A DNA stretch of 64,000 nt from Clavibacter michiganensis. GTDB lineage: Bacteria; Actinomycetota; Actinomycetes; Actinomycetales; Microbacteriaceae. The position numbers and the translations under genes are program-made. The stretch lies in the NCBI RefSeq assembly GCF_021216655.1, contig NZ_CP080437.1:1612001-1676000 (forward strand), read 5' to 3'. The notes below the pieces were generated by a model. It saw only the letters and a program-made list of their open reading frames with translations, did no database searches and was not told the DNA's origin. Of the stretch, positions 19,030 through 54,904 are shown in pieces. Each line of letters starts with the position of its first letter. The first letter of the stretch is position 1.

Positions 19030-19296
19030 GTGATCGTGCCCGTGGAGCTCTTCGCCGCCGCCGCCGCGGCGCTCGGCCGCACGACGGACGAGCTCGAGCT
19101 GCCGTCCGCAGCTGTGCTCGGCGACCTGATGGACGCGCTCGGCGCCCGTGCCGCCACGACTTCGGATCCGGCGAACGCGGCCGCCGTCCTCGCCCGCTGC
19201 ACCTACCTCGTCGAGGGCGTCGCGACCACCGACCGCGACGCGCCCCTCACCGCGGGCGCCGCGGTGGACGTGCTGCCGCCGTTCTCGGGCGGCTGA
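19030..19296 (+). CDS. moaD: MoaD/ThiS-family sulfur carrier protein
   Basis: An 88-residue ubiquitin-fold protein with GTG start, one base after moaA. It ends in the Gly-Gly tail (LPPFSGG) that is adenylated and then thiocarboxylated; MoeZ at 37095 is a plausible activating enzyme. It is the small subunit of molybdopterin synthase. Its last 37 codons are repeated at 21681-21791 on the far side of an inserted island. The present 3' end is therefore probably a replacement brought in with the island, while the displaced original sits at 21681. The gene is still complete. Confidence 0.92.
   Translation: MIVPVELFAAAAAALGRTTDELELPSAAVLGDLMDALGARAATTSDPANAAAVLARCTYLVEGVATTDRDAPLTAGAAVDVLPPFSGG
19186..19296 (+). 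repeat. Left copy of 111-bp flanking direct repeat (moaD 3' end)
   Basis: Matches 21681-21791 over 111 bp with 7 mismatches (94%). The match starts inside a codon run and ends exactly at the stop codon. Five mismatches are synonymous third-position changes and two lie in one Ala/Ser codon. Confidence 0.93.
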
Positions 19297-19302
19297 AAGC
19301 TA

Positions 19303-19314
19303 GTCACAGCTCAC
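19303..19314 (+). repeat. Island inner-edge direct repeat, left
   Basis: GTCACAGCTCAC, 6 bp after the moaD stop. It matches GTCACAACTCAC at 21669-21680 with one mismatch. Confidence 0.5.
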
Positions 19315-19411
19315 CCAGTCTTGATGGGCCGAGCGGCCTGTGATCTATTCCTACGAGTGGTCCACAGGTGCAGCGTCGAACCTCGCGCCAATGAAAGTAG
19401 CGCCCTGACTC

Positions 19412-20917
19412 TTACTCAAGCAGGGACTGCACCTCGGTAGGCGACGCTGGATTTCGATACTCCGCAATGCCTAGCGCGGCCGAAGTGAGGTCCGCAAGAG
19501 AAGCCGTATCCTTGGCCACGACTAAACCCTGGCCGAAATCTATATCTACGTCCGAGAAACCTTCCTCACCCTCGGGCGCAAGGTATCGAACAGTGACCGC
19601 ATCCACAAGGTAATCGTCGTCAAGAGATTCTGCAACCCGCATCACATGCCCTTGTATGTCAGGGCTCTGTTCAGCGTTAATGCTGACTGAACTCTGTATA
19701 CCGTGGAGGTCCACTCGCCTCAGCCGAACACCCTCAGCCGCCCTCTGCACCTGCTCCCAAGTAGCAGTGGAAGCATTGGCGCGCCCCTTCCGTAACATAT
19801 TTCCTAGGTGCGAAATATGGAGTCGGCGTTCACCTAATTCTACACTAAGAGCGGAAAGGGACCCCGCTCGAAAACTCCATAAAGGGAATGTGCTACCTCC
19901 TGCCAGCACAGCAGGAGCGCCTAATTGATTAATGCCATTGACAGCATCCGCCTCGGCGGCCGCGCCCTCAAAATCCTCCACCTCGGACCCTGTGCCCTCG
20001 TCCGCATTTGGCGCGTCCGTATCGTCAGATTCCGCAATCACAAACCCTATGTAAGCGCGCTTCGCAAACCATCTGCTAGCATTTGCTGTAATAAGGGGAG
20101 ACAAATTTAAGCCAGCGATGTCATCCCGGATGACTTCCAGGTCGCTAAAGGAAAAAAGACCACCGATGTAGCTCCAAATTGCTGCGTTGACCTCGTTTGA
20201 GGGTTGTTGCAATAGCCACGGGAGCAAGAGACGCAGTTCGGCAGCAGAAAGAGTGCCACCCTCGCTTGCGAGAGAAGCATCGTCCATGTCACCCACCGCT
20301 AGCTCCATAAGACGTGCCGTGCGTGCGATCCTGGCCACTGCATCCTCGGTGAACGCGGCCGCAATTAAGTCGATTCCATCGGACGACGCCCCCACGTAGT
20401 CGCTGACTCCGATACTCAGCAGTCGCGCGACGTCTGCCGGATTTTGGCGCCCTTTGCCGCCTCGAATAAAATTGGCTCGAACCAAGCCTTGTAAGGGGTT
20501 ATTGATTTCTCGTGTATCAGATTCTGCTACTAGTTGGAATGCCTTAGAGTCCGTTATAAGCAAGCGAGAAGAGGATGAAGGCCGCGGGGCCGATGGCTTT
20601 ATATGACGACCAGGTAAAATAGACACGACAACAGCGTCTGTCTTTGCTAGATAGTACTCATCCTTCTCGGCGTTCAACGCCCGGTAGGATGGGCGCAGGA
20701 ACACGGATCGCGTCCCAGAAATATCTTGCCGACTGTTGGCAGGCCAACTAAGTACAAAATCAGGAACCGCCGTGTGATTAAAATACTGGGTATTTTCTAC
20801 ATGACACGTAGGATCTATGGATTCAATTTCAGCCCGCACGGTATCTTTGACGCGCGACGCGTACAATGCTGGATCGTCCGTGTCTCGAGCGACACGTAAA
20901 GCCTCGAGGAACGTCAT
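19412..20917 (-). CDS. Island protein of unknown function (501 aa), defence candidate
   Basis: A 501-residue protein whose ATG 20917 overlaps the stop of the nuclease-like gene (ATGA), so the two form an operon. I recognise no family. The N-terminal 130 residues mix helices and strands (TVRAEIESIDPTCHVENTQY, VPDFVLSWP). A middle region near 285-330 is acidic and Ser-poor. The C-terminal part contains GERRLHISHLGNMLRKG and two beta-rich stretches. There is no signal peptide and no membrane segment. Base composition is much lower in GC than the flanks, pointing to transfer. The association with a PD-(D/E)XK-like partner and an island setting suggests an antiphage or DNA-processing role (inference). 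Confidence 0.75.
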   Translation of the reverse strand: MTFLEALRVARDTDDPALYASRVKDTVRAEIESIDPTCHVENTQYFNHTAVPDFVLSWPANSRQDISGTRSVFLRPSYRALNAEKDEYYLAKTDAVVVSILPGRHIKPSAPRPSSSSRLLITDSKAFQLVAESDTREINNPLQGLVRANFIRGGKGRQNPADVARLLSIGVSDYVGASSDGIDLIAAAFTEDAVARIARTARLMELAVGDMDDASLASEGGTLSAAELRLLLPWLLQQPSNEVNAAIWSYIGGLFSFSDLEVIRDDIAGLNLSPLITANASRWFAKRAYIGFVIAESDDTDAPNADEGTGSEVEDFEGAAAEADAVNGINQLGAPAVLAGGSTFPLWSFRAGSLSALSVELGERRLHISHLGNMLRKGRANASTATWEQVQRAAEGVRLRRVDLHGIQSSVSINAEQSPDIQGHVMRVAESLDDDYLVDAVTVRYLAPEGEEGFSDVDIDFGQGLVVAKDTASLADLTSAALGIAEYRNPASPTEVQSLLE

Positions 20918-21495
20918 AGCGTGTGCTTCTTTCTCTCCAAAGCCCGAAGGGCAACCTCGAGCTCAGGTTGATCGAGTGTTATTCTTTCCTGCTTAGCGTG
21001 GACCACGAGCAACCAACAACGTTCTGAGACAAGCGCCGCGAGGCTGTCGTCTAGAGACGTCCCCGTCGGTAGGACTTCTTCATCTTCAACCGCTTTGATG
21101 ACGGCTTCCTTAGTGTGCAGTCTGCCCCAGTCTGCAAGACGACCAAAAGGGTATGACGTGACGAATATGTACTCTATTTCCGGATCGCCGTCTAAGTCGG
21201 CCCATTTCCTCGCGGTCGTGCTGTATGCGTTAGCGAGAAACTCGCGAAAATCAGCTGTTTGATTACTCGCCACATTGGCGGCTTTATTTTCCACGTAGAT
21301 TTCATGACGACTTTCATGCAGAAAGCGTCCACGCAAATCGTACTTCTTTCGACCACTTTTCAGGAGAGGAAGAACACATAGCTTCTTATTCTCATACGCG
21401 TTCCAGGGGAGCTCGATGAATGTCGTGGCTTCAAGCCAGCGCCGCGTGAAGATCACTCCATCACGCCCCTGCTCCTGTGTCTCCTCATCCGGCAT
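20914..21495 (-). CDS. PD-(D/E)XK nuclease-like protein, first gene of the island operon
   Basis: A 193-residue protein counted from ATG 21495. The frame stays open upstream to 21645 with GTG 21543 as an alternative, but the distal part is GC-rich junction sequence. KYDLRGRFLHESRHEIYVENKAAN has the Asp53 then Glu69-x-Lys71 spacing of a PD-(D/E)XK core, preceded by a predicted helix and strand (FIELPWNAYENKKLCVLPL). After the core comes a helix with FREFLANAYSTTARKW and a strand YIFVTSYPF. This would make it a DNA-cleaving subunit, with the 501-residue partner perhaps giving recognition. The family assignment rests on the motif only. A TACTGT -10-like sequence 6 nt before ATG 21495 suggests a leaderless mRNA. 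Confidence 0.7.
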   Translation of the reverse strand: MPDEETQEQGRDGVIFTRRWLEATTFIELPWNAYENKKLCVLPLLKSGRKKYDLRGRFLHESRHEIYVENKAANVASNQTADFREFLANAYSTTARKWADLDGDPEIEYIFVTSYPFGRLADWGRLHTKEAVIKAVEDEEVLPTGTSLDDSLAALVSERCWLLVVHAKQERITLDQPELEVALRALERKKHTL

Positions 21496-21668
21496 GTTTC
21501 CACAGTAGGGTAAAAAGGCGATATCGGGACCCAAAGCGAGCACGACCCCGGCTTTTCCTCGAGTGCATCTTTGGCGTGAGCCGGGTTCCCACGAAGGCGG
21601 CCGTCGAGTCCGAGAGGACCTGGAGGCTGTCCAACGGGAAGGCAAAGCGATTAAGGAGAAGCCACGCG

Positions 21669-21680
21669 GTCACAACTCAC
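21669..21680 (+). repeat. Island inner-edge direct repeat, right
   Basis: GTCACAACTCAC, immediately before the second copy of the moaD end. It matches 19303-19314 with one mismatch. Confidence 0.5.
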
Positions 21681-21791
21681 GTCCTCGCCCGCTGCACCTA
21701 CCTCGTCGAGGGCGTCGCGACCACGGATCGCGACGCGCCCCTCACCGCCGGCAGCGCGGTCGACGTGCTGCCGCCCTTCTCGGGCGGCTGA
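21681..21791 (+). pseudogene. Displaced 3' end of moaD (right copy of 111-bp repeat)
   Basis: Encodes the last 36 residues of MoaD, ending in LPPFSGG, but has no start or N-terminal part. It is followed 23 bp later by the siderophore-reductase gene, which was probably the original downstream neighbour of moaD. It differs from the left copy by mostly silent changes, so it is best read as the native end separated by the insertion. Between 21496 and 21680 I see no gene; that stretch is junction sequence of mixed composition. Confidence 0.88.
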
Positions 21792-21814
21792 TCCGCCCCG
21801 ATACGCTCGCCGGG

Positions 21815-22702
21815 ATGCCCACCGCCACCCCGCACCCGCCGTACCGGCTGTTCGAGACGCGCGTGGCACACACCGAGCGCGTCTCCCCGGCGTTCGTGCG
21901 CGTGACGCTCGTCGGGCCGACGCTGCACCTGTTCGCGCCGTGGGGGCTCGACCAGCGGATCAAGCTCGTGCTCCCCCGACCGGACGGCGCGGGCGACGGC
22001 TGGGCGGGGCCGCTCGCCGGGGACGTCGACGGCCTGGCACCCGACGACTGGCGGCACCGGGTGGCGGGGATGCCGCCCGCCGAGCGCCATCCGCTGCGCA
22101 CCTACACGCCGCGCGCGGTGCGGCCGGAGGCGGGCGAGGTCGACGTCGACCTCCTCGTGCACGAGCCCGCGGGACCCGCGAGCGCGTGGGCCCTCGCGGC
22201 ACGACCGGGCGACCGGCTGCTCGTCTCGGGGCCCGACGTGCGCGCGGACGACCGGCGACACGGGATCCAGTGGCGGCCCGCCGTGCCGCCGACGCGCGTG
22301 CTGCTCGTGGGCGACGAGGCCGCCGTGCCCGCGATCGCCGGGATCATGCTCACCCTCGACGCCGACGTGCAGGGCGTGGTGCTGGTCGAGGCGGACGCGG
22401 CCGACGCCTGCCCGCCGATCGACGCGCGCCCGGCCGGCGTCGAGGTCCGTGACGTGCGGCGGATCCCCGGGAGCCCCGGCGCGGCCCTGGCCGACGCGCT
22501 GGCTGGCTGGGCGACGGAGCACGCGGCGGCGGCCGTCGCCGAGGGGCCGCGGTTCGCCGCGTGGATCGCCGCGGAGAGCACGGCCATCCCGGCGCTGCGG
22601 GCCGCGGTCGCGGCGCACGGGGTGGATCCGGGGCGCATCCTGGCGCAGGGCTACTGGCGCGCGGCCGGCCGGGGGTCGACCCCGGAGGAGAAGCTCGGTT
22701 AG
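21815..22702 (+). CDS. Siderophore-interacting FAD/NAD(P)H reductase
   Basis: A 295-residue protein starting at ATG 21815. The N-terminal FAD-binding barrel includes LRTYTPRAVRPEAGEVDVDL, the family's R-x-Y-T flavin motif. The C-terminal SIP domain starts VLLVGDEAAVPAIAGIM (pyridine-nucleotide binding) and ends GYWRAAGRGSTPEEKLG. It reduces ferric siderophores in the cytosol to release iron. The transporter genes follow directly, and an IdeR/DtxR-like box overlaps its stop codon. With moaD displaced, its own promoter is not obvious. Confidence 0.9.
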   Translation: MPTATPHPPYRLFETRVAHTERVSPAFVRVTLVGPTLHLFAPWGLDQRIKLVLPRPDGAGDGWAGPLAGDVDGLAPDDWRHRVAGMPPAERHPLRTYTPRAVRPEAGEVDVDLLVHEPAGPASAWALAARPGDRLLVSGPDVRADDRRHGIQWRPAVPPTRVLLVGDEAAVPAIAGIMLTLDADVQGVVLVEADAADACPPIDARPAGVEVRDVRRIPGSPGAALADALAGWATEHAAAAVAEGPRFAAWIAAESTAIPALRAAVAAHGVDPGRILAQGYWRAAGRGSTPEEKLG

Positions 22703-22717
22703 GGTAGCCTCACCTAC
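22699..22717 (+). promoter_or_regulatory. IdeR/DtxR-type iron box
   Basis: TTAGGGTAGCCTCACCTAC agrees with the 19-bp DtxR/IdeR consensus TWAGGTWAGSCTWACCTWA at 16 of 19 positions. It lies about 55 bp before the siderophore-binding protein gene, so the transporter should be repressed when iron is plentiful. Confidence 0.8.
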
Positions 22718-22771
22718 CTAGCTCGATGCCGGCGCTGCCGTCGAGACGCCTCCCCTCGAACGAAGGCCACC

Positions 22772-23746
22772 GTGATCCCCTCCCGTGCCGACCTGTCCGA
22801 CCGCGTCCCCGCCGCCCGAACCGCCCGACGGCCCCTCGCCGCGGCGCTCACCGCGCTGGTGGTCCTGGGGCTCGCCGCGTGCGCGCCCGCGACCTCCGGG
22901 GGCGCCGCGCCCACCGGATCCGCCGACGCGGGCACGCGCACCGTCACGGACGCGCGCGGCGAGGTCGAGGTGCCGGCCGCCCCGAAGCGCGTGGTCGTGC
23001 TCGAGCCCGTCGCCCTCGACACGAGCGTCGCGCTCGGCGTGATCCCCGTGGGCGCCGCCGTGCTCAACGAGACGGCAGGAGTACCCGCGTACCTGGGCGC
23101 CGACGCCGCGGGGGCCGAGGTCGTGGGGACGGTCCCCGAGCCGGGCGTGGAGAGGATCGCCGCGCTCGCCCCCGACCTCATCATCGGCACCGAGTCGCGC
23201 CACGCGGCCATCCACGACCAACTCGCCTCCATCGCGCCCACCGTCTTCCTCGCCTCGCAGGCCGACCCGTGGCGCGACAACGTGGCGCTCGTCGGCGAGG
23301 CGCTCGGCCGCGCCGACGACGCCGCCGCGCTCCTCGGCGACTACCAGGCGCGCTGCGACGCGATCGCCCAGGAGTACGCGGTCGCCGGCACGACGGCGCA
23401 GATGATCCGCCCGCGCGACGGCCTGCTCACCCTCTACGGCCCCGAGTCCTTCGCCGGCAGCACGCTCGAGTGCGCCGGGTTCACCACGCCGGAGCGCGAC
23501 TGGGAGGGATCCATCTCGGTCGACCTCTCGCCCGAGAAGGTGCTCGAGGCGCGCGCCGACCAGGTGTTCGTGACCACCACGGACGTGGACGACGCCTCCT
23601 CCGTACCGGCCGCGATCACGGACAACGCGGCGTCGTTCCCCGCGCTGCACCTCGTCGACCAGTCGTACTGGATCACAGGCGTCGGACCCCTCGGCGGGCT
23701 GAAGGTGCTCGACGACATCGAGGACGTCCTGCGCGCCGCGCGGTGA
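22772..23746 (+). CDS. Iron-siderophore ABC transporter binding lipoprotein
   Basis: A 324-residue protein with GTG start behind GAAGG. A basic leader (ARTARRPLAAALTALVVLGLAAC) ends in a lipobox with Cys37. The periplasmic-binding (FecB/FepB-like) domain follows with VTDARGEVEVPAAPKRVVVL and LAPDLIIGTESRH. It captures ferric siderophore outside the cell and passes it to the two FecCD permeases encoded by the next genes, which overlap by 4 bp each. The upstream iron box indicates iron-dependent control. Confidence 0.92.
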   Translation: MIPSRADLSDRVPAARTARRPLAAALTALVVLGLAACAPATSGGAAPTGSADAGTRTVTDARGEVEVPAAPKRVVVLEPVALDTSVALGVIPVGAAVLNETAGVPAYLGADAAGAEVVGTVPEPGVERIAALAPDLIIGTESRHAAIHDQLASIAPTVFLASQADPWRDNVALVGEALGRADDAAALLGDYQARCDAIAQEYAVAGTTAQMIRPRDGLLTLYGPESFAGSTLECAGFTTPERDWEGSISVDLSPEKVLEARADQVFVTTTDVDDASSVPAAITDNAASFPALHLVDQSYWITGVGPLGGLKVLDDIEDVLRAAR

Positions 23747-24756
23747 CCCGCACCCGCACGCGCACGCGCACGGCGGCGTGGGCCGCCGTGATAGCGGTCG
23801 CCCTCGCCGCGTCCGTCGTGCTCTCGCTCGCGGTGGGCGCCAACGGGCTGCACCCGGGCCTCCTCCTCGACACGCTCGCGGGAGGCGGCACCGACGAGTC
23901 CCGCTTCGTGCTGCGCGACCAGCGCGTGCCGCGGACCCTCCTCGCGCTGGCCGTCGGGGTCGGCCTGGGCGGCGCGGGCGCGCTCATGCAGGCGCTCACG
24001 CGGAACCCTCTGGCGGATCCCGGCATCCTCGGCGTCAACGCGGGCGCCGCCGCGGCCGTGGCCGGCGCGGTCGTGCTGCTCGGCGTGACGGATCCCGCCG
24101 GCCAGGCGCCGTTCGCCTACGCAGGCGCCCTGGTGCTCACCGTGCTCGTGGTCGTGCTCGGGACGGCGGGGCGCGGGCGCGCGGATCCGGTGCGCCTCAC
24201 GCTCGCGGGCATCGCCGTGGGCGCGGTGCTCTCGGGGATCACCACGGGCGTCACGCTCACGCACCCGGACGCGTTCGAGCGGATGCTCGGCTGGTCGGCC
24301 GGGACCCTCCTCGGCCGCGACCTGGCCCTGCTCGCGCCCGTGCTGCCGCTCCTCGCGGTGGGCGCGCTGCTCGCGGTCGCCGTCGCGCCGGCGCTCGACG
24401 CGGTCGCCCTGGGCGACGACACGGCCCGGAGCCAGGGCGTCTCGCTGGCGCGCACGCGCCTGGTCACGATCGCGGCGATCACCCTGCTCGCGGGCACCGC
24501 GACCGCGCTGGCCGGACCGGTCTCGTTCGTGGGGCTGATGATCCCGCACGTCGTCCGCTGGGCCGTCGGGGTCGGCCACCGCCGCGTCGTCGTGGGATCC
24601 ATGGCAGCGGCACCCGTGCTGGTGCTGCTCGCGGACGTGGTCGGCCGGGTCGTCGCGCCGCCCGGCGAGATGCCCGTGGGGATCGTCACGGCGTTCGTGG
24701 GCGCGCCCGTGCTGATCGCGCTGGTGCGCCGGAGCCGACGGGTGTCGGGGCTGTGA
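23743..24756 (+). CDS. Iron-siderophore ABC transporter permease (FecCD family), first
   Basis: A 337-residue permease with GTG 23743 overlapping the binding-protein stop. It has nine to ten hydrophobic segments. Family motifs include RVPRTLLALAVGVGLGGAGA, LMQALTRNPLADPGILGVN, the coupling-helix region ARSQGVSLARTR and FVGLMIPHVVRW. It forms half of the transmembrane channel with the next gene. The N-terminus is a short Arg/Thr repeat. Confidence 0.93.
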   Translation: MTRTRTRTRTAAWAAVIAVALAASVVLSLAVGANGLHPGLLLDTLAGGGTDESRFVLRDQRVPRTLLALAVGVGLGGAGALMQALTRNPLADPGILGVNAGAAAAVAGAVVLLGVTDPAGQAPFAYAGALVLTVLVVVLGTAGRGRADPVRLTLAGIAVGAVLSGITTGVTLTHPDAFERMLGWSAGTLLGRDLALLAPVLPLLAVGALLAVAVAPALDAVALGDDTARSQGVSLARTRLVTIAAITLLAGTATALAGPVSFVGLMIPHVVRWAVGVGHRRVVVGSMAAAPVLVLLADVVGRVVAPPGEMPVGIVTAFVGAPVLIALVRRSRRVSGL

Positions 24757-25805
24757 GCGCAGGATCCGTCCCCGCGGTCGCCGGACGCCGCGCGACGACC
24801 ACGCGTCGGGCCCGGACGCCGGCGCGCGTCCGGATCCTCGCGGTCGCCGTCGCCCTGCTCGTCGCGATCGCCGCCCTCGGCGCGGTCGCCGCCATGACCG
24901 GCGACTTCCCGGTGGCGCTCCCGGACCTGGTCGGCTCCCTCACCGGATCGACCACGGGCCTCCCCCGCACCGTCGTGCTCGAGTGGCGCATGCCGCGCAT
25001 CGCCGCGGCCGTGGTCGTCGGGCTCGCGCTCGGCGTCGCGGGCGCGCTCTTCCAGGGGGTCACGCGGAACCCCCTGGCGAGCCCCGACATCCTCGGGCTC
25101 TCCAACGGCGCCTTCGTCGGCATGCTCGGCGCGGTGGTCCTCGTCGGATCCTCGTGGGAGTCCCGCACGGTCGGCGCGCTCGCCGGTGGGCTCGCGGCGG
25201 CGCTCCTCATCGCGCTGCTGGCGTCGGGCACCGGGGCGGGTGGCTTCCGCTTCATCGTCGTCGGGATCGCCATCTCCTCCATGGCGGCGTCGCTCGGCAC
25301 GTGGCTGCTGCTGCGGGTCGAGCTCGACGTGGCCATGACCGCGTCGGCGTGGGGCGCGGGGACGCTCGCGGGCGTCGACGCGACGGGCGTGGGCACAGCC
25401 GCCGCGTCGACGGCCGTGCTGCTGTGCGCGGTGCCCGTCATCTCGCCCGCGCTCCGGCAGCTGGAGCTCGGCGACGACCTCGCCGCCGCGACGGGCGTGC
25501 GCGTCGCCCGGATGCGGCTGGCCGCGCTCGGCGTCGGCGTCGCCCTGGTGTGCGTCGCGACCACCGTCGCGGGGCCGGTGGCGTTCATCGCGCTGGCCGC
25601 GCCGCAGATCGCGCGCCGCCTGACGCGGACGCCGCACATCCCCGCGGCGGTCGCGGCCCTCGTCGGCGCGGCGCTCCTCCTCGGGGCCGACCTCGTGGCC
25701 CAGCACGCGCTCCCGATGACGGTGCCGGTCGGGGTCGTCACGGTGGTGATCGGCGGCTGCTACCTCGTGGGGCTGCTGGTCGCGGAGATCCGCCGCCGCC
25801 GCTGA
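24753..25805 (+). CDS. Iron-siderophore ABC transporter permease (FecCD family), second
   Basis: A 350-residue permease with GTG 24753 overlapping the first permease stop. It has the same motifs (RMPRIAAAVVVGLALGVAGA, FQGVTRNPLASPDILGLSNG, FIALAAPQIARRL) and about ten helices. The two permeases share the FecCD fold and probably form a heterodimer. The operon ends here. No ATP-binding subunit follows, so the ATPase must come from elsewhere in the genome. Confidence 0.92.
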   Translation: MSAGSVPAVAGRRATTTRRARTPARVRILAVAVALLVAIAALGAVAAMTGDFPVALPDLVGSLTGSTTGLPRTVVLEWRMPRIAAAVVVGLALGVAGALFQGVTRNPLASPDILGLSNGAFVGMLGAVVLVGSSWESRTVGALAGGLAAALLIALLASGTGAGGFRFIVVGIAISSMAASLGTWLLLRVELDVAMTASAWGAGTLAGVDATGVGTAAASTAVLLCAVPVISPALRQLELGDDLAAATGVRVARMRLAALGVGVALVCVATTVAGPVAFIALAAPQIARRLTRTPHIPAAVAALVGAALLLGADLVAQHALPMTVPVGVVTVVIGGCYLVGLLVAEIRRRR

Positions 25806-25850
25806 CGACGCGCGCCGCCGCCCCGCGCCCCGACGTGGTGCGGATCCGCG

Positions 25851-26330
25851 TCACCGCCCGTCGTACGCCGCCTGCAGCTCCGCCACGACGAGCCGGCCCA
25901 TGCCCATCATCGCGGCCATGGCGCGCGCGGCGCCCGCGGGGTCGGGTCCGCCGATCGTGGACGCCATCGCCTCCGGGACGACCTGCCACCAGAAGCCCCA
26001 GCGGTCGCGCACCCAGCCGCACCTGCCCTCGGTCCCGCCGTCGGCGAAGGCGTCCCAGTAGCGGTCGACCTCCTCCTGGGTCGCGGCGGAGATCGACAGG
26101 GAGACCGCCTCGGTCGCCTGCATTCCGGGGCCGCCGTTGAGCAGGCGGATCCCCTGGCCGTCGAGCTCGAGGTCGACGACGAGGGCGGTGCCGCGGAGGG
26201 CCGGGTCGGGGAAGTCGTCGGGGTACCGCGAGGTGTCGAGGATCCGCGAGCCGGGGAACAGGTCGATGTAGAACCGGGCCGCCTCCTCGATCTCCTCGCC
26301 GAACCAGAGGGTGGGGGTGATGCGCGGCAT
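25851..26330 (-). CDS. VOC-superfamily protein (PhnB-like)
   Basis: A 159-residue protein starting at ATG 26330 with GAGGAGCC upstream. It starts PRITPTLWFGEEIEEAARFY and contains TALVVDLELDGQGIRLLNGG and WGFWWQVVPEAM, typical of the PhnB / 3-demethylubiquinone methyltransferase-like subgroup of the vicinal oxygen chelate fold. The usual metal ligands are poorly conserved in this subgroup, and its function is generally unknown. It stands alone, convergent with the iron transporter. Confidence 0.85.
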   Translation of the reverse strand: MPRITPTLWFGEEIEEAARFYIDLFPGSRILDTSRYPDDFPDPALRGTALVVDLELDGQGIRLLNGGPGMQATEAVSLSISAATQEEVDRYWDAFADGGTEGRCGWVRDRWGFWWQVVPEAMASTIGGPDPAGAARAMAAMMGMGRLVVAELQAAYDGR

Positions 26331-26439
26331 GGCGGCTCCTCGTGTCCGACGGCGGCGTCGTCGCGCGCCGTCGGGGCCACGCTAGCCACCGGCGAGCCCG
26401 CGGACCAGAGCCCGACCGACGGCGGATGCGGCGGACGGC

Positions 26440-27752: not shown

Positions 27753-27771
27753 GTTCGCATTCTATGCGAAC
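27753..27771 (-). promoter_or_regulatory. GntR operator and -10 element
   Basis: A perfect inverted repeat, GTTCGCAT (27753-27760) and ATGCGAAC (27764-27771), around TCT. On the minus strand its centre reads TAGAAT, a good -10, 6 nt before the ATG at 27752. The transcript is therefore probably leaderless and the repressor would cover the -10. Confidence 0.75.
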
Positions 27772-46887: not shown

Positions 46888-46896
46888 GGGCTCCAT

Positions 46897-47444
46897 CCTA
46901 ACGATCGGCGGGAGCGCTCCCTGTCGTGTGACCGGGGCTCGGGCGGCGGCTCCGGGCGGGACGCCGCGATCGACGCTGGCTTCGTCACCGAGCCGCCGAG
47001 GATCTAAACTCGCGCCCAACCGCGACGAGAGCCGCGCCACCACCGTTTCCTGGGCTCTTCTTCGCACGGCTGGCCCGCCGGCCGGCCAACCGTAGACCCA
47101 AGCCGAATTACAAGCGATTAGTTACTTCATGTTCGAGTACGCAAATTGAATAATAACACGCACTTGTGGTCATGTGCGTCAAAGACGGGAGGCATGCAAG
47201 GCACGTGTCGCGCCGCCAAACGGCCATTTGTGACGGTCGCGCACTTCAGCAAGCTAAGGGCGGGGAGGCCGCCAATGTAATCAGGCACGCCAGGGCGCAA
47301 CCATGCAAGCGCGAACGTGACTGCAGACGCGTGAGCGATACCTCGCATGCCAACCCGCGACGCAAACACGGCCTCAGCCATCAGAGCTCTGCGAATGACC
47401 TCCTATCACAAGGGCGCGGACACAATTTTCCTGAAACGCCAGGG
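46897..47444. other. Non-coding junction between metG and the OLD gene
   Basis: From 46897 to about 47095 the sequence is high-GC and looks like the native metG upstream region. Composition drops sharply at about 47100. The remainder holds only short frames (for example 84 codons at 47127-47381, minus) with no family resemblance. GACCCAAGC at 47095-47103 is complementary to GCTTGGGTC at 49746-49754. No integrase, tRNA or gene-end repeat is seen. Confidence 0.6.
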
Positions 47445-49547
47445 TCACGTTAAAGCAAGATCATCGGTACCGGCAAATACTTGAGCAAATATGTCTCGGA
47501 GCTCCTCAAGCATTGGCTCCGCCTCCCCACCGAGTCGTCCAGAATATTGTTCGATTGTAGTGATTTCTTTGCAGAAAGCAATTGAAGCTTCCACCTTCTC
47601 CGAACTTGCGGATCCGCCGCAATATACCTCTAGGTCACCCCGCCTCAGGACGTAGACGCGCTCACGGGCCAGTCCAACAATCACCGCATCCCGCTGCTCT
47701 TCGATTGACGTAGTAGGAGGCGAGGCAAGGATGCTTTCTTTGGAATGACCCTGGCCAAGATCGAAGAGCTCTTCCAAAACCTGCTCAACAGCTTGGGCCT
47801 CCACCTCGTCACGAGCTTCCCGCCATGCCGACAGGTGCCCCTGAGCTGCCCGCCAAAGTGCGCCGGAGTTACGCCGTGCGACTATTTTCCCCACTTTTTC
47901 ACTATTCGGAGAACTTTCCTCGGGAAGGTACTCATTTACAGCCGCCATCAAAACAGAGTGCTGTCGCTTTAGTCCTTGGTCAACCGCAAGGTGCTTAAAT
48001 CCCTCGGCGAGAGAGTCGAGGTCAGTGATGACGTGGACTGCAACATTAAAATTTTTAAAGAAGTCTCGGTATCGCGAGATACTACCCTTACCGCCCGTTT
48101 TTACAAACATGACATTTCGATCATTTTGATCCCAATCTGTCGAGATCATCTTGGCTAGGTGAGGGAATGTAATCGTGTCACTATCGCCCTCGACGAGCAC
48201 CACGGTTCTAGCGAAAAACGCAGCCTCGTTGTTTTCGTGATGAATGAGCTGGTACGCGTCCCTCGCCTGCAAAGCAATATCGACAGGGTAAGGAATGACA
48301 CCGTCCCTCGTCTTTTGCAACTTTGCAAAGCCACTTGTTGTCGGCGTGAAGAAACCGGGGGAATGGGTGGTGACCAAAACCTGGTGATCACGGGAGAATA
48401 CTTCGAGCGCCGCCATCAGCTGCCTCTGAGCACGTGGATGAAGGTATAGCTCCGGCTCCTCGAAGAGGAGAACATACGCATGCCTTTTTGAGGCAGGGGC
48501 CGGCTCCTCGCCAAGGCCACGTCCGCGGAGCTCCGTATACGCCCGCAAAATGGCGAACAGAACAGTTCGCTTAAGACCATCGCCTTTGCTCGCGAGCATT
48601 CCGAGGTGCCCATCGTCGATCGCCAGCTCCGCTCCGCTTAAAATTGTCGTCAGCGTGGGAGCGGGAACGTTCATCTGCAACTTCACGTCTGGGAAGCTAT
48701 TCTGAACGAAGCGCTCGATCGTCGCCTCGATAAGCTTTACGGCAGGCAACCTTTGGTCGCTCGCTTTGCCATCTGCTTCAAGTACACGACTCAGCTTCGA
48801 GTGAATACCAGCAAATTGCTTTTCGATGCTACCGAGCTGGTCTTCGACTTCCGTGAAGAGTAATTCAAGGAGTTTACTAAATGTGGCCGATCCAGTCGGC
48901 TTGGCTTCAGCCGTCGCATCTTTAACCGCCTCGATATATATAACACTTGGCAGGAGCGGCTTCAAGCCCGCGCTAATTCCAGTAGCAAACTTTGTAGGGA
49001 CTTCCGTCAACTCTTCTTCGGGGAGCTGCTGCTTGAATTGCCTCCAGTAATCGCGTACGTCCCCGATCTTCGGGGCGGCATCTAGCACGTCAGCGAAAAG
49101 TGGCTCACATTCGACAGCGGCAGCCCGCAAATTAACGCCTTTTTTACCAGTAATTGCCGCCTCGAGGCGGGCATCGTCCCAACTATCTGATGTCGGCGAA
49201 TAGTCCATGTACCGGGACTCCGCGGTGGCAGCAGCGGCCTGGGTGCGCACGAGAGTTAGTGATCCGTTGCGGATCATACTCGCGACGCGCTCACGGTGAG
49301 CCTCACCGACTCGGGACAAGTCGTCTGCATCAATGTCTTCGATTCGAAGCACGACGCATGCCTGCACGCTCTGATCTCGAAAGTCAGTCGCAGTCAGCTT
49401 TTTCTCTTCGAGTACGAACTGTAAGGCATGAAGCACCGAGGACTTGCCCGCGTTATTTTCGCCGATCAGGCAACCGAGTTGCGACAATGGAATTGTCGTA
49501 TCCGCGTGAGCTCGAAAGTTCTGAATTCGGATATTGGTGAGCTTCAT
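47445..49547 (-). CDS. OLD-family ATPase-nuclease (AAA plus TOPRIM), defence candidate
   Basis: A 700-residue protein from ATG 49547 with GAGGA upstream. The RecF/SMC-like N-terminus has MKLTNIRIQNFRAHADTTIP and Walker A GENNAGKSS (29-37). The signature region is SKGDGLKRTVLFA (about 321-333), with Walker B VLLFEEPELYLHP (359-371) and VTTHS (392-396). The TOPRIM nuclease domain follows with LVEGDSDTITF (Glu453) and TDLDSL (Asp509, Asp511). This is the class 1 OLD layout; such proteins, alone or with a helicase as in Gabija, cut DNA and can block phages. Low GC and unusual codons mark it as acquired. It lies just 3' of prpC. Confidence 0.88.
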   Translation of the reverse strand: MKLTNIRIQNFRAHADTTIPLSQLGCLIGENNAGKSSVLHALQFVLEEKKLTATDFRDQSVQACVVLRIEDIDADDLSRVGEAHRERVASMIRNGSLTLVRTQAAAATAESRYMDYSPTSDSWDDARLEAAITGKKGVNLRAAAVECEPLFADVLDAAPKIGDVRDYWRQFKQQLPEEELTEVPTKFATGISAGLKPLLPSVIYIEAVKDATAEAKPTGSATFSKLLELLFTEVEDQLGSIEKQFAGIHSKLSRVLEADGKASDQRLPAVKLIEATIERFVQNSFPDVKLQMNVPAPTLTTILSGAELAIDDGHLGMLASKGDGLKRTVLFAILRAYTELRGRGLGEEPAPASKRHAYVLLFEEPELYLHPRAQRQLMAALEVFSRDHQVLVTTHSPGFFTPTTSGFAKLQKTRDGVIPYPVDIALQARDAYQLIHHENNEAAFFARTVVLVEGDSDTITFPHLAKMISTDWDQNDRNVMFVKTGGKGSISRYRDFFKNFNVAVHVITDLDSLAEGFKHLAVDQGLKRQHSVLMAAVNEYLPEESSPNSEKVGKIVARRNSGALWRAAQGHLSAWREARDEVEAQAVEQVLEELFDLGQGHSKESILASPPTTSIEEQRDAVIVGLARERVYVLRRGDLEVYCGGSASSEKVEASIAFCKEITTIEQYSGRLGGEAEPMLEELRDIFAQVFAGTDDLALT

Positions 49548-49794
49548 GGGTCCTCGATTGATTGCGAAGACGAGGCTAGATTTGGCGGTCTCCTCGTAGT
49601 AACAATCCTACGACGGACGCGGGCGCCGGACACGTCCTAGAATGGGGGGCACCATAGGCCGTGCTTTTTGTTCCTAACACTCGATTACTACCCACCGCGC
49701 CTGCCGTGGGACGAGGACGCCGTGCGAGCTTGACCCGCTCGAGTTGCTTGGGTCCGCGACCATCCGTGAACTAAGTACCGAGCCCGCGTCGCGG
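49548..49794. other. Junction between the OLD gene and prpC
   Basis: No gene is seen. It contains the OLD gene's upstream region; TTGTTA and AATCTA, 17 bp apart on the minus strand, are a weak promoter candidate. The sequence is of mixed composition up to the prpC stop. No copy of the prpC 3' end is found at the other border. Confidence 0.5.
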
Positions 49795-50928
49795 TCACGA
49801 CAGGTGGCGCTCCGCCGGTCCGTCGTACTCGGAGAGCGGCCGGATCAGCGAGTTGGACGCCCGCTGCTCCACGACGTGCGCGGTCCAGCCGACCACGCGC
49901 GCGGCGACGAACAGCGGCGTGAAGGCGCGGGTCTCGAAGCCGAGGAGCGCGTAGGCGGGGCCCGACGGGTAGTCGAGGTTCGGCAGGATCCCCGTGCGCT
50001 CGGCCATGCCGCGCTCGAGCGCGTCGTACAGATCCATCGCGCGGCGGGCGGACTCCGCCGCCTCGCCGCCCGCCTCGACGCGCACCGCGACGAGGTCGTC
50101 GAGCGCGGCCTTCATGGTGGGCACGCGCGAGTCGCCCGCACGGTAGACGCGGTGGCCGAAGCCCATGACCTTGCGCTTCGCGGCGAGCGCCTCATCCAGC
50201 CAGGCCTCGACCCGTGACGCGTCGCCGATCTCGTCGAGCGTCTCGAGCACGGCCTCGTTGGCGCCGCCGTGCAGCGGGCCCTTGAGCGCGCCGATCGCGC
50301 CCGTGACCGCCGAGTGCAGATCGGCGAGGGTCGAGGTGATGACGCGGGCCGTGAACGTGGAGGCGTTGAAGGAGTGCTCGGCGTAGAGGATCAGCGACAC
50401 CTCCATGGCCTTCGCGTCGGCCTCGGTGGGGCGCTCGCCGTGGACCATGAGGAGCAGGTTCTCAGCGAGGCCGAGGTCGTCGCGCGGCTCGACCGGGGCG
50501 AGGCCCAGGCGGCGGCGCTGGTCGTACGCGATGAGCACGGGGATCTGCGCGAGCAGCCGCACGGACCGCTCGAGGTCGGCGTCGGCCGAGTGGTCGTCGG
50601 GCGCGGGATCCGCGGCGCCGATCGCGCTCACCGCGGTGCGGAGGACGTCCATCGGGTGGGCGTCGACGGGCAGCGCGTCGACGATCCGCAGCACCGCGTC
50701 GGACGGCCGCCGCTCGGCGCGCTCCTGGTTCTCGAAGTGCGCGATCTCCTCGTCGGTGGGCAGCTCGCCGTGCCAGAGGAGGTACGCGACCTGCTCGAAG
50801 GAGCAGTGCGCGGCGAGCTCCTGCACCGGGTACCCGCGGTAGAGGAGGGAGTTGGTGGCCGGCTCGACCTTGCTGATGCGGGTCGTGTCGACGACGACCC
50901 CGGCGAGGCCCTTGCGGATGTCGGTCAT
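49795..50928 (-). CDS. prpC: 2-Methylcitrate synthase
   Basis: A 377-residue citrate-synthase-fold enzyme from ATG 50928 with CGAAGGAGCA upstream. Catalytic histidines lie in GPLHGGANEAV and VMGFGHRVYRAGDSR, and the C-terminus has ASNSLIRPLSEYDGPAER. Citrate and methylcitrate synthases are hard to tell apart by motif. I choose PrpC because prpB and prpD lie 5-7 kb away on the same strand. It condenses propionyl-CoA with oxaloacetate. It is cut off from prpDB by four plus-strand genes, one in a foreign unit, and bordered downstream by the OLD insertion. Confidence 0.85.
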   Translation of the reverse strand: MTDIRKGLAGVVVDTTRISKVEPATNSLLYRGYPVQELAAHCSFEQVAYLLWHGELPTDEEIAHFENQERAERRPSDAVLRIVDALPVDAHPMDVLRTAVSAIGAADPAPDDHSADADLERSVRLLAQIPVLIAYDQRRRLGLAPVEPRDDLGLAENLLLMVHGERPTEADAKAMEVSLILYAEHSFNASTFTARVITSTLADLHSAVTGAIGALKGPLHGGANEAVLETLDEIGDASRVEAWLDEALAAKRKVMGFGHRVYRAGDSRVPTMKAALDDLVAVRVEAGGEAAESARRAMDLYDALERGMAERTGILPNLDYPSGPAYALLGFETRAFTPLFVAARVVGWTAHVVEQRASNSLIRPLSEYDGPAERHLS

Positions 50929-51193
50929 GGTGCTCCTTCGCGTCATGCCGCACCCGCGTCGGTCGGGCGGATCGGGTCGCCTCGGGGTGCGTTCGTCACT
51001 GTATCGGGGCGGGCTGCGCGGGGGCGAGGACCGGGGACGGCCGCGGGATGGACGCGCGGAAGCCTCCTGGGGAGGAGCGGACGCCGGTGACGGGCGGCTC
51101 CGCACCCGCGTCGGAGCGGGATCCGCTCGGTAGCCTCACGAGCAGGCGCACCCGACGCGCCGACCGCGCAGCCGCGCCGACCCGGAGGACGCC

Positions 51194-52663
51194 ATGCCCG
51201 AGAGCACCGACCACGCCGATCCCGCCGCCGCCTCGCCCGACGCACCGGACGCACCCGACGCACTGGCCCACTACGACGTCGCCGTCATCGGCGCCGGACC
51301 CGCGGGCACCGCCGCGGCCCTCCGCGCCGCCGAGCTGGGCGCATCCGTCGTGGTGCTGGAGGCCGGCCGCGTCGGCGGCACGTGCGTCAACACCGGATGC
51401 GTGCCCACGCGCGTGCTCGCGAAGACCGCGCGGCTCGTGCGCGAGGTGCGCTCCGCGGGCGAGAACGGGATCGGCGTGGGCGAGGCGACGCCGCACTGGC
51501 CGTCGATCGTCGCGCGCGTGCACGAGCAGGTCGACCGCGTGCGCTCCCTCAAGGACGAGGCCGCCCGGTTCGAGGCGGCGGGCGTGACGCTGATCCACGA
51601 GGGCCGCGCGCGCTTCGTCGACGACCGCACGCTCCAGCTCGACAGCGGCCGGCGGATCACCGCGGGCTCGATCATCGTGTGCGTCGGCGGCCACTCGCGC
51701 CGCCTGCCCGTGCCCGGCGCGGAGCTCGCGACCGTGCCCGCGGACGTGCTCGCGCTGCCGGGGATCCCCCGCCGACTCGCCGTCATCGGCGCCGGCAACA
51801 CGGGCGCGCAGCTCGTGACCGTCTTCCGCTCGTTCGGCTCCGAGGTGACGCTGCTCGACGTCGCGCCGCGCGTGCTCACTGCGTCCGACGAGGCGATCTC
51901 CGAGGCCGTCGCCGACGCGTTCGCCGCGCAGGGCGTGCGCGTGCGCACCGGCATCGACACGGTGACGGGCCTCACGAAGACGGGCGACGGATCCATCACC
52001 CTGCTCTGGCGTGAAGGCGACCGCCCGCAGTCCTCCAGCTTCGACGCCGTGATCATGGCCACCGGCTGGCCCGCCGACGTCGACGACCTCGGGCTCGAGC
52101 ACGCGGGCGTCGAGGTGGCGCGCTCGGCGATCCCGGTCGACCGGTACCTCCGCACGCGCGTGCCGCACATCCTCGCGGTGGGCGACGCCAACGGGAAGGA
52201 CATGCTCGTCCAGGCGGCGCAGTCCGAGGGCGAGGCGGCGGCCGAGAACGCGGTGCTGGGCGTCAACCGGCGGATCCCGCTGCAGCTCCTCCCGGCGGGC
52301 GGCTTCACCGACCCCGACTACGCGGGCGTCGGCCTCACCCAGGCGGAGGCGCGCGAGCGCGACGGAGCGTGCGTGGTCGCGCGCGTCCCGTTCGCCGAGG
52401 TCGACCGCGCCGTGATCGACGACCGCGAGGCCGGCTTCCTCCTCCTCATCGCCGACCGCCGCCGCGAGCTCATCCTCGGCGCGCACGCCGTGGGCGAGAA
52501 CGCGGTCGAGGTGATCCAGTCGGTCACCACCGCGATGGCCGCGGGTGTCGACGTCGCGACCCTCGCGCACGTGCGGTTCGCGTACCCGACGTACAGCGCG
52601 ATCATCGGGATCGCGGCCCGGCGGCTGCTGCAGGACGAGGCGCTGGCGGGCGAGCTGGACTGA
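51194..52663 (+). CDS. FAD-dependent pyridine nucleotide-disulfide oxidoreductase
   Basis: A 489-residue protein from ATG 51194 behind CCGGAGGAC. FAD is bound at YDVAVIGAGPAGTAAALRAA, the redox-active disulfide is GGTCVNTGCVPTRVL, and NAD(P) is bound at RLAVIGAGNTGAQLVTVFRS. The C-terminal dimerisation domain ends IIGIAARRLLQDEALAGELD. It is closest in type to mercuric-reductase/dihydrolipoamide-dehydrogenase-like proteins, but the substrate is unknown and the usual C-terminal His-Glu dyad is not evident. Its last 203 bases are repeated at 54696-54904 beyond an inserted AAA-TOPRIM gene. The present end is therefore probably a replacement. Confidence 0.88.
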   Translation: MPESTDHADPAAASPDAPDAPDALAHYDVAVIGAGPAGTAAALRAAELGASVVVLEAGRVGGTCVNTGCVPTRVLAKTARLVREVRSAGENGIGVGEATPHWPSIVARVHEQVDRVRSLKDEAARFEAAGVTLIHEGRARFVDDRTLQLDSGRRITAGSIIVCVGGHSRRLPVPGAELATVPADVLALPGIPRRLAVIGAGNTGAQLVTVFRSFGSEVTLLDVAPRVLTASDEAISEAVADAFAAQGVRVRTGIDTVTGLTKTGDGSITLLWREGDRPQSSSFDAVIMATGWPADVDDLGLEHAGVEVARSAIPVDRYLRTRVPHILAVGDANGKDMLVQAAQSEGEAAAENAVLGVNRRIPLQLLPAGGFTDPDYAGVGLTQAEARERDGACVVARVPFAEVDRAVIDDREAGFLLLIADRRRELILGAHAVGENAVEVIQSVTTAMAAGVDVATLAHVRFAYPTYSAIIGIAARRLLQDEALAGELD

Positions 52664-52666
52664 CGC
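52458..52666 (+). repeat. Left copy of 209-bp flanking direct repeat (reductase 3' end)
   Basis: Matches 54696-54904 with 4 mismatches in 209 bp (98%). All four are silent third-position changes. The match runs 3 bp past the stop codon. Confidence 0.94.
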
Positions 52667-54695
52667 TCACCATGAGCCCCTGACTGGGGTATCCAAGCCC
52701 TTCAGCCCAGGGAGCACACTTATGAATCGGCTCTTGGTGAGTCGCGCACACCTTTTGTCGCTGACGACATCTGGGGCTGAACACGCTACAGCCGCATTAG
52801 GTTCGTAAGTCTTAATTGAAGAATACATACGCCTTGGGGGCACCGTGCCGCAGATGCTAAAAGGATTCGGGTTTTCTGGATACAGAAGCTTTTGGGGAAA
52901 GGAGGTTCAGCGCATTGGCGCGATGGATAAGGTTCACTTGATTGTCGGACAGAATAACAGTGGCAAGTCGAATGCATTACGCGTGGCAAGCTCACTCTTA
53001 TCCAACATGCTTCCTCGCAACCCGTTCTCGGCACCTCAAGGCTTTGACAGACCACAAGGGGATAATGTATCTACACAGTTCACCCTGAGCGTCTCTTTTG
53101 CCATACCTCACGAAATGGCCCTTCTTGCCGCCTTTGGTGAGCCCACGTCAGCAGTGCCAGCAACTCACAAACGAGCCATCGACCACATGCTTGCTCTCGA
53201 TGCCTTTAAGGGGCCAGGAGAGGATCCGTGGTTTGACTTTGTCCTTCCGGATGGCATCCAGTCTGGAACACTCGTCCCGTCGCCCGCACAGTTAGCGCGC
53301 GCACTGGCAGAATACAATACACAGCCGAACCTCGGTAATTACGGCGGCCCTCCGTACTGGAGCACCGCAGTACGCCCTACCAGCTCGATATCAGGCTCAA
53401 AACATGACCAAAAATTACTTGCTGAATTCATTGAAGCGCTTGACCTACCATCTAAAATCCCGCCCGTCAGTACCATAGCCGCATTTCGCCAAATTCGCGT
53501 AACGAGCGAAGGCGAATCGGACTTCAGCGGTGCGGGTCTAGTGAAACGACTGGCCGCGTTGGAGAACCCAGCCCTGCGTGAGTACGCCTCAGCGCAGGCA
53601 AAGTTCGAGGAAATTAACGAGTTTGTGAAGCAAGTGCTGGAGGATACTACTGCGCGAATCACAGTGCCTTCGGACCAAGACCGGATCCTGGTTCAGAGTG
53701 GCGGTCGTGTTTTGGAGCTCGACGCTCTCGGCACAGGCGTCCACGAGGTCATTATTTTGGCCGTCGCCGCAACCCTCCTGGAAAACCACCTGGTTTGCAT
53801 CGAGGAGCCAGAGGTGCACCTTCATCCCGTTCTGCAGCGTCGACTACTACGTTACTTGAAGGAACAAACTAGCAACCAGTATCTGATTGCTACTCACTCT
53901 GCCCATTTTCTCGATTCCGCCTTAGCCTCCATTTCCCACGTTCGCCTAACAGTGGACGGCACCAAAGTCGATCCAAGCATCCGACCGAGTGAGATCGCAA
54001 ACATTGCTCGGGATCTCGGGTATCGAGCTTCTGATATCGTCCAGGCGAATTGTATATTGTGGGTAGAAGGACCCTCGGACCGGATATACCTGAGGCATTG
54101 GATCCGCATAATTGATGACTCTTTGACTGAAGGTGTGCATTTCTCCATCATGTTTTATGGTGGAGCCCTTTTAAAACATCTCACCGTGGAAGACAATGAG
54201 GTTAGCGAGTTCATCATGCTTCCTCGCTTAAATCGTCATCTTATGATTCTTATTGACTCGGACCGATCCTCAAGAGCCCAGGACATCAATCCGGCCAAAA
54301 AGAAGATCAAAGAGGCTTTTGGCTTGAACTCGGACTCCGATAATTACGCGTGGATAACTGACGCTTACACTATCGAAAGCTACGTACCACCAAACATACT
54401 GAAAAGCGCCATTCTTGCGCTACACCCTCGGTCTCATCCGGTATGGGCAGGCGATCGGTATACCAATCCCCTGGATCTCTCCCAAACTGGAAGGAGAAGT
54501 GAAATTAATAAGACAGCCTTAGCCCAGGAAGTGGTCAAGCAGTGGACCAATCTGGAAGGCTCCCAAGCCTTGCCCGGACGAGTACGGGCAGTCGTCCAAT
54601 TTATTCGAAGGGCAAATGACTTGCCGTCGAAAGAGTTCCGTGGGCGTAGGGCCTCCCACTGAGGTCTTTTGCCGCGTCGAGCTGCGAAGTATGGA
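52667..54695. mobile_element. Low-GC unit inserted at the reductase 3' end
   Basis: About 2.0 kb of AT-rich sequence between the two copies of the reductase end. It encodes one AAA-TOPRIM protein and no recombinase. Same architecture as the island behind moaD. Confidence 0.8.
52845..54662 (+). CDS. AAA ATPase with TOPRIM domain (OLD-like), defence candidate
   Basis: A protein of 605 residues from GTG 52845; ATG 52854 is an alternative. Walker A is GQNNSGKSN (35-43) and the signature LDALGTGVHEV (about 292-302). Walker B is CIEEPEVHLHP (318-328) and the His switch ATHSAHF (349-355). The TOPRIM domain has WVEGPSDRIYL (Glu408) and the DSD at 471-473. It differs from the OLD gene at 47445 in sequence and has a shorter C-terminus with YTIESYVPPN. 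It is a single-gene unit of low GC, probably acquired; phage or plasmid defence is the best guess. Confidence 0.86.
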   Translation: MPQMLKGFGFSGYRSFWGKEVQRIGAMDKVHLIVGQNNSGKSNALRVASSLLSNMLPRNPFSAPQGFDRPQGDNVSTQFTLSVSFAIPHEMALLAAFGEPTSAVPATHKRAIDHMLALDAFKGPGEDPWFDFVLPDGIQSGTLVPSPAQLARALAEYNTQPNLGNYGGPPYWSTAVRPTSSISGSKHDQKLLAEFIEALDLPSKIPPVSTIAAFRQIRVTSEGESDFSGAGLVKRLAALENPALREYASAQAKFEEINEFVKQVLEDTTARITVPSDQDRILVQSGGRVLELDALGTGVHEVIILAVAATLLENHLVCIEEPEVHLHPVLQRRLLRYLKEQTSNQYLIATHSAHFLDSALASISHVRLTVDGTKVDPSIRPSEIANIARDLGYRASDIVQANCILWVEGPSDRIYLRHWIRIIDDSLTEGVHFSIMFYGGALLKHLTVEDNEVSEFIMLPRLNRHLMILIDSDRSSRAQDINPAKKKIKEAFGLNSDSDNYAWITDAYTIESYVPPNILKSAILALHPRSHPVWAGDRYTNPLDLSQTGRRSEINKTALAQEVVKQWTNLEGSQALPGRVRAVVQFIRRANDLPSKEFRGRRASH

Positions 54696-54904
54696 GCCGC
54701 CGCGAGCTGATCCTCGGCGCGCATGCCGTGGGCGAGAACGCGGTCGAGGTGATCCAGTCGGTCACCACCGCGATGGCCGCGGGCGTCGACGTCGCGACCC
54801 TCGCGCACGTGCGGTTCGCGTACCCGACGTACAGCGCGATCATCGGGATCGCGGCCCGGCGCCTGCTGCAGGACGAGGCGCTGGCGGGCGAGCTGGACTG
54901 ACGC
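54696..54904 (+). pseudogene. Displaced 3' end of the reductase (right copy of 209-bp repeat)
   Basis: Encodes the last 67 or so residues of the reductase in an intact frame ending LLQDEALAGELD and TGA at 54899-54901, with no start. The original downstream gene (54936) follows 32 bp later. It is best read as the native end displaced by insertion. Confidence 0.9.

Follow-up and report, generated by a model that had tools for sequence, protein, structure and literature searches.

Displaced gene ends behind defence-type cargo in Clavibacter are consistent with arrival by homology on one side

We analyzed a 64,000-nt stretch (the window) of one genome of the genus Clavibacter (G000; 3.38 Mb), in which two groups of low-GC genes each lie behind an intact gene, moaD or lpd, and are followed by a second copy of the end of that gene. 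The order in each case is intact gene, stop codon, cargo, displaced copy of the gene's end, and native flank. An earlier note on this stretch had described these two units as sharing one plan, with cargo placed after a gene whose 3' end is supplied anew. Both repeats are real, and the plan is not confined to these two loci: there were 12 displaced ends (all counts refer to gene 3' ends) at four genes, moaE, moaD, lpd and prpB, in six of the 18 Clavibacter genomes compared, G000 included. Several of the cargo genes appear to be antiviral in type, and the cassettes apparently carry no insertion enzyme of their own. We think, with moderate confidence, that foreign cargo came on DNA of a sister Clavibacter, already linked to the donor's version of the target gene, that it entered through homology in the gene, and that no homology was involved in joining its far end. 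How defence genes without a mobility gene move is an open question. Displaced gene ends would be scars from which the site and direction of each arrival can be read, along with its order and the divergence of its donor; gain of such genes without a recombinase would become countable in genomes, with stacked ends showing the order of arrival.

Repeats in the window were sought at lengths of 45–800 nt, at least 84% identity and a spacing of 0.3–20 kb, and units 1 and 2 were the only pairs found there at these limits. Most of the 18 genomes were covered in part, four of them (G004, G014, G016 and G017) around single loci only, and prpB ends were enumerated in some genomes only. G000 has no near strain in the set; its best mean match is approximately 94% over the parts compared. 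Unit 1 lies behind moaD and comprises the following features, in window coordinates.

17940..19028, plus strand: moaA, upstream of the unit 1 target (NCBIfam TIGR02666, 360.5 bits against a cut-off of 284.05)
19030..19296, plus strand: moaD, the intact target, following moaA; read from the sequence, from GTG at 19030 to the stop at 19296
19185..19296, plus strand: cargo-side repeat copy, the last 112 nt of intact moaD, presumed to be the incoming end
19412..20917, minus strand: cargo, 501 aa, no family match, probable partner of the nuclease-like gene
20914..21645, minus strand: cargo, nuclease-like protein, judged by conserved residues and the folds of a predicted model
21680..21791, plus strand: displaced moaD end, running on into the native flank; the site is empty in G006

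Low-GC cargo thus separates intact moaD from a second copy of its last 112 nt, behind which the native flank resumes. The direct repeat (19185–19296 and 21680–21791; 112 nt) has seven mismatches (93.8% identity), of which five are silent and two fall in one Ala/Ser codon. We take the target to be MoaD because of its position after moaA and its C-terminal GG, and its 3' region was matched in all 18 genomes. The empty site, with moaD leading directly to siderophore genes, was seen in G006. Those genes (a siderophore-interacting protein and FecCD transport genes, window 21563–25850, directly 3' of moaD) were found among the 17 relatives in G006 only, within the 10–20 kb fetched downstream.

Neither cargo protein of unit 1 matched the Pfam, PADLOC or NCBIfam models. 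Both have relatives in other actinobacteria (21 proteins found for the 501-aa protein and 24 for the smaller one, each count including the protein itself), and the two are probably partners, with five contigs apparently common to both lists of relatives. In the smaller protein, D53 and E69-x-K71 are invariant among relatives. Its predicted model (pLDDT 84) had as best folds the restriction enzyme BstEII and the Lamassu nuclease LmuA, at E values of 1.1e-3 and 1.3e-3, probabilities of 0.99–1.00 and TM scores of 0.38–0.43; there was no fold match at E of 0.001 or below, and a sequence search against solved structures gave nothing at E below 0.2. The protein therefore looks nuclease-like at modest fold scores. 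Because its closest relatives among those listed are shorter, a start about 50 codons downstream of that of the longest frame (193 aa) is suggested. It is entered as 193 aa in the protein collection, where its cluster occurs on 30 contigs, and other strains or assemblies therefore carry this cargo.

Unit 2 lies behind a gene that we call lpd.

51194..52663, plus strand: lpd, the intact target, a FAD (pyridine nucleotide-disulphide) oxidoreductase (PF07992/PF02852)
52458..52666, plus strand: cargo-side lpd repeat copy, presumed to be the incoming end
52845..54662, plus strand: cargo, a 605-aa AAA ATPase of OLD/GajA type (PF13175, 9.7e-18; PADLOC GajA, 9.5e-20)
54696..54904, plus strand: displaced lpd end, running on into the native flank

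The name lpd is used loosely, the product having scored below the cut-off of each of 25 NCBIfam models among those listed. The direct repeat (52458–52666 and 54696–54904) is 209 nt long with four mismatches (98.1% identity), all silent, which reproduces for the two units together the earlier count of nine silent mismatches in 11. The lpd site is empty in 11 of the 17 relatives, for example G008. In both units the spacers have a GC content of 52–54%, compared to 74–78% in the flanks.

Twenty regions of 20 kb from the rest of G000, 18 evenly spread and two adjoining the window, contained one more gene-end repeat, at moaE to the left of the window (189 nt, 96.3% identity, 1.2 kb of cargo). The 18 evenly spread regions had no cargo repeat; the two pairs found in them were weak, at less than 86%. 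A search of 304 contiguous kb of G000 gave no direct repeats at the set limits other than the moaE, moaD and lpd pairs. The moaE end was matched in 17 of the 18 genomes, with a second copy in G000, G013, G003 and G007; closer reading added G010, with a repeat of 39–41 nt. In G008 and G014 the same native flank follows moaE directly, which is the empty arrangement. The moaE cargo is a 193-aa secreted-looking protein with a small membrane-type frame, of which G010 retains the small frame only (by eye; L134 6380–7560). Our guess is that the two are possibly a toxin-immunity pair. Distant relatives of this cargo occur elsewhere in G000, G001 and G008.

A displaced moaD end was found in G000 alone (1/18), and lpd ends in G000 and G003 (2/18), the latter with a 91-nt repeat around cargo different from that of G000. 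The fourth target has no repeat in the window.

55776..56690, minus strand: prpB, whose end is duplicated in G003, G007 and G008 (twice in G008)

The cargo behind prpB is related in G007 and G003, with repeats of 207 and 62 nt, respectively. In G008 two arrivals appear stacked: SIR2-like and HerA-like genes (PADLOC, 2.7e-139 and 3e-147) are followed by a displaced prpB end, a gene with a HEPN/Toprim N-terminal domain, a second displaced end and the native flank. Identity to the working end is 93% for the inner displaced copy and 88% for the outer, more decayed one, which alone has indels and the native flank. The SIR2-HerA pair comes with a small third frame (L347 1079–4139) and lies directly behind prpB, ahead of the older insertion.

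Repeat lengths vary at a single gene (39–189 nt at moaE, 91 and 209 nt at lpd, 62–215 nt at prpB). In the nine pairs tested, the 3' end of the repeat was 0–3 nt from the stop codon and the start varied, giving repeats of 39 to 215 nt. Over 1.82 Mb from the genus, with some overlap, the pairs of at least 90% identity were the counted cases and one pair in G002, described below. Two of the 12 fall under 90%, the outer G008 copy (88%) and G007 moaE (approximately 83%). Weaker pairs (82–89%) with high-GC spacers in G003, G006, G007, G010 and G011 are outside the count. In a set of 80 lpd loci drawn mainly from other genera (1.02 Mb; five loci from Clavibacter), there was no repeat at the lpd end, and the lone repeat detected (L292, 47 nt) had a high-GC spacer and lay away from that end. 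Similarly, among 66 loci with low-GC ATPase or DUF2971 genes (two sets of 33, with approximately 1.5 kb of flank), repeats were present at the two window units only.

The differences between copies bear on where each copy came from. In seven pairs there were 31 silent and eight non-silent differences, against an expectation of 25.7% silent in the absence of selection (P = 3e-12). Not among these seven are G007 moaE, whose displaced copy has indels, G010 (39 nt), both G008 pairs, and G013 moaE, which has the same cassette as G000 and taken alone has six silent differences of six. Because the differences are mainly silent, the copies look imported rather than duplicated, and the silent argument made earlier from the two window units, that both copies had served as working gene ends in different lineages, holds on this larger set. 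At moaE, the left and right copies differ at 5–8 positions per 167 nt in G000, G013 and G003, and repeat-free relatives differ among themselves by a mean of 9.9 (range 5–19); values for G007 (18 between its own two copies) are approximate, since its displaced copy, which has decayed, is out of register at its end. Judged from sequence, the two moaE copies look like the working ends of two Clavibacter lineages.

Three observations point to the cargo-side copy as the incoming end. Synteny places the displaced copy next to the native flank. At moaE in G003, G007 and G010, the stop codon of the working copy is TAG; the displaced copy has TGA, as do 11 of 12 repeat-free relatives. At lpd, a T at repeat offset 88 of the working copy is absent from all 17 relatives, every one of which matches the displaced copy.

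These properties argue against a simple target duplication, in which insertion copies the recipient's own gene end by a long staggered cut or break repair and the copies are identical at first. Such a process would resemble the insertion with long target duplication known from Helicobacter (PMC1643837). It would also account for G003 lpd, where the copies have two differences in 91 nt, neither of them silent. In a spare copy free of selection, however, most changes should be non-silent, and 31 of the 39 differences are silent, the moaE divergence is at species level, and the stop codon differs between copies at three moaE loci. With these silent, species-level differences and unlike stops, the two repeats do not both look like the recipient's, G003 lpd alone fitting duplication too. 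We regard target duplication as very unlikely.

Phages that integrate at icd or tRNA genes restore the gene ends that they interrupt, and integrase elements are known in the 3' ends of protein genes such as icd. The present units are like those elements in that the gene end is restored, with silent differences, and unlike them in that no integrase was found in the cassettes and no fixed boundary was seen. The earlier note had raised the possibility of a recombinase acting in trans; the cassettes would then be non-autonomous integrative elements moved by a site-specific recombinase that recognizes and restores gene ends. Elements of this kind typically restore the gene up to the stop codon, show silent differences, have repeats at both ends and stack, as the cassettes do, and different elements could bring gene ends of different length, possibly with a common core inside the shortest repeat. 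Recombinase genes are present in every genome, with 2–4 matches to PF00589 and 1–12 to PF00239. Whole-genome searches limited to these two families, however, gave no match inside any cassette. G000, G007 and G008 have no additional tyrosine recombinase: they have two PF00589 genes only, both present in all 18 genomes at similar scores and probably XerC and XerD (G003 and G010 have three matches and G013 four). Of the serine resolvase matches in G000, two are on small contigs; the other three are on C1 (1325923 and 2366567–2366984). In addition, repeat lengths and starts vary at one gene, the related prpB cargo of G003 and G007 does not end at one common place, and there are insertions without any repeat. 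There was no consistent inverted repeat or arm motif in the arms of 10 elements. A motif on both sides of unit 1, GTCACARCTCA, had the best p value (0.015) of 20 comparisons and hence was not used. Supply from another recombinase family or from a lost vehicle is possible, and overall we consider a recombinase in trans unlikely.

A transposon that makes a short, constant target duplication does not fit, because the repeats are 39–215 nt long and consistent inverted repeats are lacking. No transposase family was among the Pfam matches of the cargo proteins scanned, a scan that covered the cargo other than the small frames and the G007 prpB cargo.

Ordinary homologous exchange probably had a part in the spread of finished cassettes. 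G000 and G013 share one moaE cassette, with seven mismatches in approximately 1.6 kb, and differ by approximately 5% within 25–100 nt outside both repeats. The sequences thus suggest transfer between species of a finished cassette, both ends included, on a short tract. Two-sided homologous exchange would have this effect, and the transfer fits the earlier proposal that cargo traveled with flanking homologous sequence. Such exchange could be the whole explanation if old repeat-flanked cassettes existed and each present case was copied whole from another strain. The shared cassette, which includes both copies and is bounded within approximately 25–100 nt of the repeats, is what this would produce, and variable content without a repeat is common at gene ends here. 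Exchange alone leaves unexplained how at least six repeat lengths and the stacked copies first formed, and as a complete account we find it distinctly unlikely.

The reading that we favor, entry by homology in the gene and joining without homology at the far end, draws on the junctions. In eight pairs, the last 20 nt of cargo ahead of the displaced copy matched the gene at 3–9 of 20 positions, and on the gene side the sequence is continuous; the junction is homologous on one side and non-homologous on the other. Ordinary homologous recombination would pair incoming DNA with the recipient's gene, and joining of the piece's far end would involve no homology. This could happen in two ways. The piece might be trimmed, circularize and enter by one crossover, leaving a duplicated end of variable length. 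Alternatively, its far end might be joined directly to the chromosome by homology-facilitated illegitimate recombination (HFIR), in which case the landing point would decide whether a duplication, a clean junction or a deletion results. By either route the incoming end would become part of the working gene, leaving the old end stranded beyond the cargo. Because each newcomer enters at the gene side, later arrivals at one gene would stack in front of earlier ones, and a finished cassette might then spread by two-sided exchange, as between G000 and G013. That repeat lengths stop near 215 nt may be due to recombination removing longer ones.

Insertions without a displaced end bear on the second route. 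One of them is in the window, between the two units.

47445..49547, minus strand: OLD nuclease-type gene, a clean insertion behind prpC (PADLOC Old, 3.3e-87)
49795..51105, minus strand: prpC, of citrate-synthase type, the target of the OLD insertion (PF00285, 2.6e-122)

The earlier note had listed OLD as a possible third case. Its position directly behind prpC is as described, the insertion beginning within approximately 6 nt after the prpC stop, with an empty site in G003 and G007, but no gene-end repeat was found at its junctions. A DUF2971 gene behind moaD in G007 similarly has a clean junction at the stop and no repeat. At three further sites without a repeat, some native sequence on the far side has been lost or replaced: those of a related DUF2971 gene in G015 (moaD), a PtuA/PDC-M01-like pair in G011 (moaD) and, behind lpd, a PIN-domain gene in G001. 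In the cases read, the near junction was at the stop or within approximately 8 nt of it, and the far junction ranged from a duplication of approximately 209 nt through zero to a deletion. With duplications, clean junctions and deletions all present, both routes may be at work.

Parallels for the separate steps have been described. Of 60 clones from E. coli conjugation, 56 showed the PCR product of a lacZ-end duplication (109–950 bp in the 14 sequenced), explained by trimming, re-circularizing ligation and a single crossover; direct one-sided joining was rarer (4/60) and gave deletions (PMC3240628). There, as in Clavibacter, the end of a homologous gene is duplicated around non-homologous DNA, at variable length and without a recombinase. 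The E. coli case was a laboratory plasmid with duplications of 109–950 bp, whereas the present cases are natural, involve diverged lineages and span 39–215 nt (PMC3240628). HFIR likewise uses homology on one side only and accounts for clean and deleting junctions; it is described as generally causing deletions (PMC3240628), whereas most of the cases counted here are duplications. In serial displacement of type VI secretion system effector-immunity modules in Vibrio, for which HFIR has been proposed, a module enters at the anchored side and the old 3' part is pushed downstream, forming arrays. In Vibrio the displaced part belongs to the module's own locus (PMC5361080); in Clavibacter a housekeeping gene unrelated to the cargo supplies it. 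Small variable segments flanked by direct repeats make up 10–18% of segments in three species, but 66–94% of those repeats are shorter than 30 bp (PMC2884548), compared to 39–215 nt at gene ends here.

The closest relative is probably insertion with long target duplication, described for restriction-type genes in Helicobacter (Nobusato et al. 2000, as described in PMC1643837; cited in PMC3031569), and our best reading is that the Clavibacter plan is a variant of it that has not previously been described. The two have in common restriction-type genes without a named enzyme, long direct repeats, and a single copy at the empty site of a sister genome; single copies were found at lpd in 11 of 17 relatives, at the unit 1 site in G006 and at moaE in G008 and G014. 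The present cases differ in that the repeats are gene 3' ends with silent differences, one copy apparently imported, that cargo stacks, and that several targets lie in one block. In the literature searched, including selected parts of a defence survey (PMC11856565), no account was found of such scars at gene ends around Clavibacter defence genes.

Several observations weigh against one-sided entry from a sister lineage. The earlier expectation that left copies are foreign and right copies native has synteny and the moaE stop codons in its favor, but similarity, with no near strain of G000 to compare, was indecisive: at moaD, 14 of 17 relatives were closer to the working copy and three to the displaced copy, and at lpd there were 11 ties and three relatives on each side. 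The silent test counts doublets and one TAG/TGA change as independent silent changes, and individual pairs depart from the trend (G003 lpd, 0/2 silent; G003 prpB, 1/2). The G003 and G007 moaE repeats may have one decayed start in common, in which case there are fewer independent starts than the counts suggest. Searches of the family with three cargo proteins (299, 299 and 249 genomes) found no donor with cargo and without a repeat; outside the sites described here, they gave distant relatives only. Direct HFIR is very rare in E. coli (PMC3240628), and random joining gives no particular reason to expect clean junctions at the stop, as in prpC-OLD and G007 moaD.

The clustering of the repeats is also unexplained by this model: all three in G000 lie in 84 kb, the window and its left neighbor (P of approximately 0.002, a rough sum for the sampled sequence, the neighbor having been picked for adjacency and the window for its finding). 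A dedicated, enzyme-poor loading route is conceivable, in which a few genes in one block serve as docking ends, the matching end of the cargo acts as a "key", and arrivals stack, as in an integron that works on homology. The machine would be host recombination or an enzyme of the vehicle. We judge this route very improbable. A location of the block at the terminus was also considered; there was no clear GC-skew switch, and a scan of G000, G007 and G003 stretches for dif-like sites found nothing.

Two other lower-GC loci were noted in G000. A MACPF-domain gene (window 60138–61550) had no repeat found around it, and a C5 methylase gene with a GIY-YIG gene (L143 413–2375) forms a restriction-like pair without a flanking repeat.

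The G002 pair was set aside as a candidate. Its 228-nt repeat (L337 14964–19530; G002:C1:2421963–2426529) corresponds, by eye, to a pair of small precursor-like genes. The two genes are near-identical, cysteine- and serine-rich, approximately 4 kb apart, and presumably resemble lanthipeptide precursors.

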